Below, in pieces: positions 2,951 through 6,946 of a stretch of 36,527 nucleotides of DNA. Both the position numbers and the translations under genes were made by a program. The number at the start of each line of letters is the position of its first letter. The first letter of the stretch is position 1. Under the pieces are notes generated by a model that was not told where the DNA came from, ran no database searches, and saw only the letters and a program-made list of their open reading frames with translations. Source of the DNA: Candidatus Acidiferrales bacterium (GTDB lineage Bacteria; Acidobacteriota; Terriglobia; Acidiferrales; UBA7541); NCBI GenBank assembly GCA_030037355.1, contig JASHRL010000144.1, forward strand, positions 1-36,527, in the 5' to 3' direction.

Positions 2951-2983
2951 TGTTTGGCGCGGATTGCCTGTATGGTTTGTCAG

Positions 2984-3003
2984 GGCATGGCTTTAGCCAT
3001 GCC
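2984..3003. repeat. REP-like hairpin, 5' outer
   Basis: GGCATGGC-TTTA-GCCATGCC, perfect 8-bp stem. Confidence 0.85.
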
Positions 3004-3022
3004 AAAGCGGAGTTAAGGAGGG

Positions 3023-3036
3023 GCGGCTTTAGCCGC
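3023..3036. repeat. REP-like hairpin, 5' inner
   Basis: GCGGC-TTTA-GCCGC, preceded by GGAG at 3017-3020. Confidence 0.75.
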
Positions 3037-3043
3037 TGAGGTC

Positions 3044-3547
3044 ATGGTCAGTCCACGACGCCATATTCACGCGCCTGGAACGTACTTCGCAACGTCACGT
3101 ACATGGCAGAGCCGGAAACTTTTTACAAATTCCGAGATTTGCAAAATCTTTCTGGAATCGCTGCTTCGATATCGCGAGCAAGGCCGATACGCGCTTCACG
3201 CATTCATACTGATGCCTGAACATTTTCATATTCTGATTACTCCGGCTGAAGACGTAACACTGGAACGGGCTGTTCAGCTTATGAAAGGCGGTTCCGCGCA
3301 CAGCATAGGGGAAGAAAGAAAATTAGCTTTTCCGGTGTGGCAGCGCGGATTCAGCGACCATCGCATTCGAGATTATAGCGATTACGAGATGCACCTGCGA
3401 TACATAGAGCAAAACCCCGTCAAACGAGGAATTGTCGCCTCGCCAGAAGAGTATGAATGGTCGTCGGCAAAGGGAGAAGTCACGTTGAACGACGTACCGC
3501 AGCGGCTAAAGCCGCTTTCTCGTGTGATGGCTGTACGGCACGGCTAA
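3044..3547 (+). CDS. REP-associated tyrosine transposase (Y1/HUH, IS200-like)
   Basis: HUH motif MPEHFHILI; downstream YIEQNPVKRGIV with candidate catalytic Tyr; 167 aa; flanked by REP-like palindromes. Confidence 0.9.
   Translation: MVSPRRHIHAPGTYFATSRTWQSRKLFTNSEICKIFLESLLRYREQGRYALHAFILMPEHFHILITPAEDVTLERAVQLMKGGSAHSIGEERKLAFPVWQRGFSDHRIRDYSDYEMHLRYIEQNPVKRGIVASPEEYEWSSAKGEVTLNDVPQRLKPLSRVMAVRHG
3501..3516. repeat. REP-like hairpin, 3' inner, inverted relative to the 5' copy
   Basis: AGCGGC-TAAA-GCCGCT, located inside the transposase C-terminal coding sequence. Confidence 0.8.
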
Positions 3548-3556
3548 AGCCGTGCC
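3537..3556. repeat. REP-like hairpin, 3' outer, inverted relative to the 5' copy
   Basis: GGCACGGC-TAAA-GCCGTGCC, perfect 8-bp stem; transposase TAA stop is at 3545-3547 in the loop. Confidence 0.85.
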
Positions 3557-3661
3557 CTGACAAAGCGCGATCTTGCCGAGTCAGTGAGCAGCGCATGCGA
3601 TGCAATTTGTTTGTAGGATTCGCGGTCCTGCGGGACTTGAAGAAATGAGCATATAGGCCAA

Positions 3662-6600
3662 ATGGCTAAACGCACGGACATCAAGAAAATCATGATTATC
3701 GGTTCGGGGCCGATTGTCATTGGGCAGGCGTGCGAGTTTGATTATTCCGGTACGCAGGCGTGCAAGGCGCTGCGCGACGAAGGGTACGAAGTCGTGCTGG
3801 TGAATTCGAATCCAGCGACGATCATGACCGACCCTGAGGTGGCCCAGCGCACGTACATCGAGCCGCTGACGAAGGAATATCTCGAGCCCATCATTGCACG
3901 CGAACGCCCGGACGCGCTTTTGCCGACCGTCGGCGGCCAAACCGGATTAAACACAGCGGTCGAGCTGGCCGAGAGCGGCATTCTCGAAAAATACAATGTC
4001 ACGTTGATCGGGGCGTCGCTGAAAGCGATTCGCATCGCGGAGGATCGCCTGCAATTTAAGGATGCATGCCAGCGCGTTGGCCTTGAAGTACCGGCTTCGG
4101 CTGTGGTTCGCGACATCGCCGACGCGGTGAAAATCGCCGACGGGATGGGCTATCCCGTCGTGATTCGCCCGTCATTCACGCTGGGCGGCACGGGCGGATC
4201 GATTGCGTACAACCATGAGGAATTCGCCGAGGCAATCGCGCGAGCTCTCGATGCAAGTCCCGTGCACGAGGCGTTGATCGAAGAATCGGTGCTGGGCTGG
4301 AAGGAATTCGAGCTCGAAGTGATGCGCGATCATCGCGACAACTTCGTCGTGATTTGCTCGATTGAGAATTTCGATCCCATGGGAATTCACACGGGCGACT
4401 CGATCACTGTTGCGCCTGCACAAACGCTCACGGATAAGGAATATCAGCGGATGCGCGACGCGGCCGCGGCTGTGATTCGAGAAGTCGGTGTTGCGACAGG
4501 TGGGTCGAACATCCAATTCGCGGTTGATCCAGAATCCGGCCGGATGGTTGTGATCGAGATGAATCCGCGCGTTTCGCGCAGTTCGGCGCTGGCGAGCAAG
4601 GCGACGGGGTTCCCGATTGCGAAAATAGCGGCAAAGCTGGCCGTGGGGATGACGCTCGACGAAATTCCGAACGATATTACGAAGAAGACGCCATCATCGT
4701 TCGAGCCGACGATTGACTATGTCGTGGCAAAGATTCCGAAGTGGCAATTCGAGAAATTTCCCGGCGCGGATCCGACGCTTTCTGTGCAAATGAAGTCCGT
4801 CGGTGAAGTGATGGCCATCGGGCGGACGTTCGCGGAGGCGCTTGGCAAGGGCATTCGGTCCCTGGAACCGCATGCGCCCTGGCGCGCGCCAGACGAGATC
4901 ACCGATGCGGTGCTACGCGAAAAATTGCACGTCCCGGGGCCGGATCGGATTCATTGGCTGCTGACAGCGCTGCGGCAAGGAATGAAAGTCGACGACATTG
5001 TGGCGCTGACGAAAATCGACTCGTGGTTTTTGTACCAAATGGAGCAGGCCGTAGCGCTCGAAAAGGAAGTTGCTTCGGTGGGCGCCGTCGAAGTTTCTCA
5101 GACGCTCCTCAAAGAGGCGAAACGCTCAGGAATGAGCGATGAACGATTGGCGCAACTCTGGAAGACGAATGCGGCGGACGTGCGTGCGATGCGCAAGAAA
5201 TACGACTTGCGGCCGGTGTTCAAGCGCGTGGATACGTGCGCAGCGGAATTCGAGTCGTTCACGCCGTATATGTATTCGACCTATGAAGAAGAAGACGAAG
5301 CGGAGACTACGGCGCGGCGAAAAGTCATGATTTTGGGCAGCGGACCGAACCGCATCGGGCAGGGAATCGAATTCGATTATTGCTGCTGCCACGCGGCGTT
5401 TGCGCTCAAGGAGGATGGCTACGAAACAGTGATGGTGAATTGCAATCCGGAGACCGTTTCCACGGATTACGACACCTCCGATCGGCTGTATTTCGAGCCA
5501 CTCACGCTTGAGGATGTGCTCTCCGTGATCGAGCGGGAAAATCCCGAGGGTGTGATTGTTCAATTCGGCGGGCAGACGCCGTTGAATCTCGCGCTGGATC
5601 TCAAGCGCAACGGCGCTCCAATCATTGGAACAGCTCCGGAATCCATCGATTTGGCGGAAGACCGGCGGCGATTCGGCAAATTGCTCGAGGAGCTGAACAT
5701 TCCACAGCCGCGAAATGGAACAGCATTGACTTCGGCTGAAGCTGTGAGCGTTGCGCAGGAAATCGGATTGCCAGTGCTCGTTCGTCCGAGCTACGTGCTT
5801 GGCGGACGCGCGATGGTTATCGCGTACGACATGGAAACCGTGCAGCGGACAGCGCTGCAAGCGTCATTGATGAGCAGTGGCGGAGCGCCTCGGCCTATCC
5901 TTGTGGATCAATTCCTCGAAGACGCAGTGGAAGTCGATGTGGACGCGCTGGCGGACGGGACCGACGTCGTGATAGCGGGAATTATGGAGCACATCGAAGA
6001 GGCCGGCATTCACTCTGGCGATTCGTCATGCGTGCTTCCCCCTGTGACATTGAAACCTGCGGACCTAGCGCGAATTCGCGAATATACATCCAAGCTGGCA
6101 AAAGCTCTGCGCGTTGTAGGTTTGATGAACGTCCAATACGCGATTCCTCGAAACAGCGACACAGTGTACGTGTTGGAAGTGAATCCGCGCGCGTCGCGAA
6201 CCGTGCCGTACGTTTCGAAAGCTACGGGTGTGCCGTTGGCGAAAGTCGCGGCACGACTGATGACTGGCAAAAAGCTCGCGGATATGAAGCTGCCGGTGGC
6301 GGAATACAACGGCGTGGCGGAATTACGCAGCCGCGACTATTTCTCGGTGAAATCGCCGGTCTTTCCGTTCAACAAATTCCGCGGAGTGGATACGATCCTC
6401 GGCCCGGAGATGCGTTCCACCGGCGAAGTGATGGGAATTTCACCGAATTTCGGTCTGGCATTTGCAAAGGCGCAATTGGCAGCGGGCCAGCGGTTGCCCC
6501 GCCACGGAACCGTGTTCATCAGCGTCAATGACCACGATAAGCGGCAGTTGCTCGCATTGGCACAGGATCTGATCGCGGCGGGCCTGAAACTGATCGCCAC

Positions 6601-6946
6601 GCGCGGGACGTATCAAACCATCAGCGCCGCCGGCTTGGAGGTCGAGCCGGTATACAAGGTGAACGAAGGCCGGCCGAACATCGTGGATCTGATCAAAACT
6701 GGCAAAGTGGATTTGATCATCAATACGCCTCTGGGACGCGAGTCGTTTTACGACGAGAAATCGATTCGCCGCGCTGCGGTGCGCCACATGTTGCCGTGCA
6801 TTACCACATTCTCCGCAGCGGTCGCAGCGGCGCGCGGGATGCGCGCGCTTTCCGAAGGGCTGGGAGGCGTCGCAGCGCTGCAGGATTTGCATGCGAAAGA
6901 GTTAGCCAGTTCTCCGGCAGCGCAACGTGTTTCCTCCGGGAGCTGA
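3662..6946 (+). CDS. carB: Carbamoyl-phosphate synthase large subunit
   Basis: 1094 aa with duplicated ATP-grasp halves ([50 protein letters not shown]) and C-terminal MGS domain. Confidence 0.98.

Follow-up and report, generated by a model that had tools for sequence, protein, structure and literature searches.

Acidobacterial RAYT-like genes (TIRYT) carrying terminal inverted repeats have been described as part of the elements named TIRtrons (Di Nocera et al. 2013, PMC3733652). In the text of that article, a sharply defined acidobacterial TIRYT group is recognized, some repeats are called 'double palindromic' and sometimes overlap the 3' end of the gene, and some TIRs are repeated in the genome, though only one of the three TIR families of K. 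versatilis. The same text names transposition or cleavage of the TIR by TIRYT as future work, and mentions neither a carA-carB nor a mutL location. RAYT 'orthogroups', in which one chromosomal position is associated with different REP classes by strain, have been reported by Nunvar et al. 2013 (PMC3686654). The open-access literature text yielded no report of a RAYT at carA-carB or mutL; RAYT combined with carA/carB returned unrelated papers.

The locus described here lies between carA and carB in the window (the whole 36,527-nucleotide stretch that was analysed). It is a real, well-formed element of a known kind, a TIRtron, in that a RAYT-like gene is accompanied by terminal inverted repeats on both sides, as it also is in most relatives. 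Its parts and immediate neighbours are as follows:

1736–2950, + strand: carA, carbamoyl-phosphate synthase small chain, the upstream neighbour (Pfam CPSase_sm_chain, GATase)
2976–3003, + strand: left outer hairpin, with head TTTGTCAG (2976–2983), 8-bp stem GGCATGGC/GCCATGCC and loop TTTA
3004–3022, + strand: left spacer of 19 nt, holding AGGAGG (3016–3021)
3023–3036, + strand: left inner hairpin GCGGC-TTTA-GCCGC, with tail TGAGG (3037–3041) directly 5' of the RAYT start
3044–3547, + strand: RAYT, a TnpA-REP-like Y1 transposase of 167 aa (NF047646, Y1_Tnp, PDB 4ER8)
3502–3515, − strand: right inner hairpin, within the 3' end of the RAYT ORF (from arm comparison and folding)
3537–3564, − strand: right outer hairpin, with head TTTGTCAG, stem GGCACGGC/GCCGTGCC and loop TTTA
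3662–6946, + strand: carB, carbamoyl-phosphate synthase large chain, the downstream neighbour (Pfam CPSase_L domains)

A sequence-only reading of this DNA had called the ORF a RAYT, and model searches bear this out: it scores 118.2 bits against NF047646, the NCBIfam model of REP-associated tyrosine transposases (cut-off 80), and matches the Y1_Tnp domain. The closest solved relative is E. coli TnpA-REP (PDB 4ER8, E=6.3e-11), with which the HUH, WQ and Tyr motifs align; here these are EHFH (aa 59–62), WQ (99–100) and YIEQNP with the catalytic Tyr120. The ORF thus has the Y1 transposase domain, HUH, catalytic Tyr and RAYT-type motifs of the class, and the locus has the flanking REP-like hairpins that are also dispersed genome-wide. 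None of the subclasses in the survey PMC6006769 has EHFH, WQ and YIEQNP as its three motifs. An IS200/IS605 insertion sequence (multi-copy, near-identical, autonomous) was considered and ruled out, with one copy in the genome and an IS200 model score below the cut-off (18.5 versus 55 bits). The genome's four other RAYTs are distant, matching at E 1e-4 to 1e-13, and the nearest relatives of the carA-carB RAYT are only 62% identical.

The hairpin repeats that flank the RAYT are not a product of chance: GGCTTTAGCC has four mismatch-free matches in the window, all of them at this locus. As had been proposed, two nested inverted hairpin pairs bracket the gene; the outer arms (2976–3003 and 3537–3564) are 93% complementary over 28 nt, and the inner arms (3023–3042 and 3496–3515) 95% over 20 nt. 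The outer arms differ only at the two positions of a single stem pair, T-A on the left and C-G on the right; each side therefore retains its 8-bp stem and TTTA loop, and the suggested compensatory change is confirmed. Single-stranded DNA folding gives two hairpins in each unit, at −15.3 kcal/mol (z −3.2) on the left and −18.0 kcal/mol (z −3.9) on the right. The reverse complement of the left inner hairpin has a (C)TCAG foot, which places the inner hairpin in inverted orientation relative to the outer. Some details of the sequence-only reading required correction: (i) the inner GCGGC-TTTA-GCCGC pair is present, but its hairpins measure 14 nt rather than 16 nt, (ii) the spacing of 19–20 nt between inner and outer hairpins holds on the left (19 nt) but is 21 nt on the right, and (iii) the layout is more entangled with the gene than described, the right inner hairpin lying inside the ORF and the stop codon in the right outer loop. 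The exact ends of the element are deduced from the correspondence of its arms.

The RAYT stop codon TAA (3545–3547) is supplied on the + strand by the loop region of the right outer hairpin. The stop likewise lies within a hairpin loop at 27 of 103 related RAYT loci, because TTTA and TTCA loops read TAA and TGA on the opposite strand; a stop supplied by a TAAA or TGAA loop may help to explain the preference for TTTA and TTCA loops. At the other end of the gene (window positions 3016–3041), a Shine-Dalgarno-like AGGAGG stands 5' of the inner hairpin and GAGG directly 3' of it, just before the RAYT start. Hairpin-dependent or self-limiting translation of the RAYT is possible. As no more than an idea, a RAYT that binds its own end could limit its own expression, the inner tail and spacer being at the expected ribosome-binding site. 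An AGGAGG-like motif ends the spacer in 8 of 36 left units, all eight in the window's clade by inspection; among right units it occurs in 2 of 26, and among solo units in 0 of 23.

The hairpins are members of a dispersed, REPIN-like repeat family. A pattern search with TCAGGGCNNGGCTTNAGCCNNGCC returned 14 matches in the 3.75-Mb genome and none with the reversed control, which agrees with the earlier description of the hairpins as REP-like and shows them to be dispersed. Across all 61 genomes searched, the reversed control again gave 0 matches; relatives carry between 0 and 85 copies of TCAGGGCNNGGCTTNAGCCNNGCC. Of 62 distinct copies of the outer hairpin, 60 have complementary bases at the free NN/NN positions, with three combinations of pairs represented. 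In most of this genome's copies, a shorter second hairpin, tailed by a TGAGG-like sequence, stands about 15–21 nt beyond the outer one and starts with TCA(G) when read on the opposite strand; each unit therefore pairs two unlike hairpins in inverted orientation, a form comparable to that of a REPIN. TCA(G) stands at the outer ends of both hairpins and solo copies are mostly doublets, but the partners are unlike in stem and length, and any movement as one unit, which defines a REPIN, is putative; the second half exists in at least three versions in this genome. In place of the GTAG or GTGG foot of canonical REPs, the foot here is TCAG, and those of relatives AAAG, GAAG, TAAG and TGGG.

A second two-hairpin family, with foot GTGGGTCG, has seven copies in this genome (G000 C13, C41, C60, C138, C310, C349 and C400; L289–L295) and flanks none of the RAYT loci found there. 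In other genomes, the same foot flanks RAYTs located after gyrB (L192, L224). The RAYT of this family may have been lost from the present genome.

The flanks of 103 related RAYTs were extracted for comparison of hairpin layout, and most show the double-hairpin arrangement on both sides. The double-pair layout is thus the rule for this RAYT group, and less unusual than first supposed. The outer foot depends on lineage, with GTCAG, GAAAG, GGAAG, TTAAG, TGTGG and others represented. Within an element, left and right ends resemble each other: over 78 loci, feet match at 4.28 of 5 positions (2.66 ± 0.11 when right ends were shuffled among loci), and stems at 7.15 of 8 (5.33 ± 0.12), with the choice of the best right hairpin applied to the shuffles too. 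This agreement above shuffled levels indicates that both ends of an element evolve together.

The RAYT group has recurrent homes. Of the 103 distinct RAYT loci on the tree, 28 lie in the carA-carB gap (for three of these, only one of the two genes is within the stretch seen) and 13 in the aspS-mutL gap, in every case on the same strand as the gene that follows. Rarer addresses are after gyrB, between nuo genes, before pheS, and between murE and murF; these genes, and aspS and mutL, were named from their translations, without a family search. The carA-RAYT-carB loci are spread over at least six families, while the RAYT group as a whole is almost confined to the class, with one outside genome (G540) in a phylum sample of 247. 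Occupation is discontinuous: among the matches examined, a RAYT fills carA-carB in at least 22 of 399 class genomes. Family f11 was also sampled blind to the RAYT, and 5 of the 25 carA-carB gaps in that sample contain a RAYT match, one of which is only a 38-aa fragment. Most of the genomes compared are metagenome-assembled, and their contigs sometimes end at RAYT elements.

Other occupants of these gaps were also seen. One genome, G107, holds two RAYTs of different clades (L231 and L228), one in carA-carB and one in aspS-mutL. In four genomes, the carA-carB gap contains a small gene resembling a GIY-YIG nuclease (L098 in G001, L099 in G003, L106 in G033 and L123 in G005; family assigned from the translation only), bracketed by inverted CATTCCGAG...GAGGAATCTGC repeat copies. 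This second, unrelated repeat-flanked nuclease suggests that the gap serves generally as a place of insertion. Two congeners (L098 and L100; G001 and G004) have a small membrane-protein-like ORF directly after carA, which is absent from the window.

Comparison of RAYT and CarAB distances gives partial congruence. In family f11 the two are correlated (Mantel r 0.62, p 0.0002), the pattern that vertical descent would give; clades W and b taken together show no such agreement (r 0.08, p 0.22). RAYTs resident at carAB fall in at least three RAYT clades, and a single clade was rejected for them (p-AU 1e-89), as it was for mutL residents (p-AU 1e-5). In these AU tests, labels were suggested by the data and the tree was a quick one, and departures leading to paraphyly would also break monophyly; the result thus indicates relocation, the direction of which lies outside the test's reach. 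Given that the residents are not one clade, the trees indicate that relocation of whole units did happen over evolutionary time.

A search for scars in relatives' carA-carB gaps gave one clear case, the congener G001; G408 also holds an apparent relic. The G001 gap holds one exact, complete two-hairpin unit without a RAYT, in which the GGAG spacer motif of left units is followed, where the RAYT would begin, by a RAYT-start-like CATGG. This unit is most simply taken as a remnant, in which case a RAYT was probably in the carA-carB gap before G001 and the species described here split. A candidate in G028 was weak, with 2 mismatches over 13 nt where shuffles reached a minimum of 3, and was left out of the count. 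Since carAB occupancy is a minority state, gain and loss are not firmly separable; the best fit is a long residence in which relocation was rare and loss recurrent.

The sequence-only reading had entertained a different history, in which the four hairpins and RAYT form a unit of the composite-transposon type, still mobile and only lately inserted into carA-carB. The ends are indeed symmetric, no same-genus genome has this RAYT at E≤1e-25, and in most relatives within the window's own family the genes nearly abut, with 17 of 28 carA-carB gaps measuring 0–40 bp. Insert-free junctions had been proposed as a means of defining the element's ends; none came from a very close relative. Against recent entry are the single-copy RAYT with its distant nearest relatives, the recurrence of carA-RAYT-carB in distant families, and the left-end features of the G001 unit. 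Two observations had been named in advance as arguing against recent mobility; an arrangement shared with distant taxa was found in part, and a lack of other hairpin copies was not (14 outer copies). We consider recent entry improbable. Still less credible is the proposal that the hairpins are RNA regulators (attenuators or terminators) of the car operon, only incidentally associated with a RAYT. Transcription of the gap that holds them is probable, the RNA leader gives a better fold than shuffled sequences do (z −2.5), and the inner tail GAGG and spacer AGGAGG resemble ribosome-binding sites; but RAYTs at mutL, gyrB, nuo and further loci are flanked by these units too, solo copies occur genome-wide, and the hairpins have no match in Rfam and no terminator-like site. 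The scan that returned no terminator also returned no sigma-70-like promoter. Both proposals were rejected on the evidence against each.

Harder to set aside, though in our judgement unlikely, is strictly vertical residence: a RAYT present in carA-carB in the class ancestor, with losses and departures alone producing today's pattern. The f11 congruence, the apparent relics in G001 and G408, and the shared strand of all carA-carB cases are in its favour. It is opposed by the spread of carAB residents over at least three clades, with the reservation that departures could leave them paraphyletic, and by family f6, in which the RAYT in the carA-carB gap of G164 is of a different clade from those of G107 and G188. 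In the reading that we prefer, with a probability of about 0.7, a TIRtron/REPtron-type RAYT element has an old carA-carB residence that has been mainly vertical, often lost, and occasionally recolonised.

In this preferred reading, each flanking unit is a REPIN-like hetero-dimer, consisting of a long outer hairpin with a TCAG foot and a short inner hairpin inverted to it. By analogy with E. coli TnpA-REP, from whose biochemistry we infer cleavage chemistry and transposition, the RAYT would (i) bind foot and hairpin as single-stranded DNA, (ii) nick via Tyr120, and (iii) occasionally copy or move two-hairpin units to other intergenic sites, giving rise to the dispersed non-autonomous copies. 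The gene and both flanking units would relocate jointly only rarely, and the carA-carB copy would owe its distribution to long residence by mainly vertical descent, frequent loss, and occasional recolonisation by related RAYTs. Favoured homes would be same-strand housekeeping gaps, chiefly carA-carB and aspS-mutL, and more rarely nuo, gyrB, murE-murF and pheS. The recurrence suggests that an element in such a gap may be tolerated or protected, plausibly because these gaps would accept inserts, provide read-through expression and penalise deletions. A bolder extension, which we hold to be doubtful but worth stating, is that carA-carB and aspS-mutL are true docking homes: different RAYT lineages would have entered them independently, perhaps replacing or exchanging with a resident two-hairpin unit, and been kept since their deletion would damage an operon that is essential.

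The carA-carB and aspS-mutL set bears on the persistence of RAYTs as single-copy 'domesticated' transposases. RAYTs with two common homes across families and ends that switch in step provide a natural series for asking which of position, joint expression with a host operon and hairpin recognition maintains them. The sequences also point to foot-hairpin recognition extending beyond GTAG/GTGG, and offer matched RAYT-foot pairs for binding tests.

Among known systems, the E. coli TnpA-REP (PDB 4ER8) shares HUH, WQ and Tyr with the present RAYT, but is distant in sequence and has a reported foot of GTAG rather than TCAG. The REPINs and REPtrons of Pseudomonas and E. coli (Bertels and Rainey 2011, PMC3116915; Nunvar et al. 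2010, PMC2817692) have in common with it a single-copy RAYT, inverted doublets and dispersed non-autonomous copies; they differ in their GTAG/GTGG feet, against TCAG, AAAG, GAAG, TAAG and TGGG here, and in that the two hairpins of a unit are here unlike in length and stem. As in the RAYT orthogroups (PMC3686654), RAYTs at a common position have differing REP sequences; those orthogroups lie within species groups, whereas the present set extends across families of a class, and different RAYT clades can occupy the same gap. Closest, together with these orthogroups, are the acidobacterial TIRtrons (PMC3733652), which likewise place a Y1 transposase between inverted repeats; the present set shows hetero-dimer units, switching of feet matched at both ends, and recurrent homes throughout the class. 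The carA-carB element is unusual in its non-GTAG feet, the unlike hairpins of each unit, the matched switching of its feet and its recurring address in the genome; apparently new are the recurrent homes and the non-GTAG, lineage-specific feet matched at both ends.
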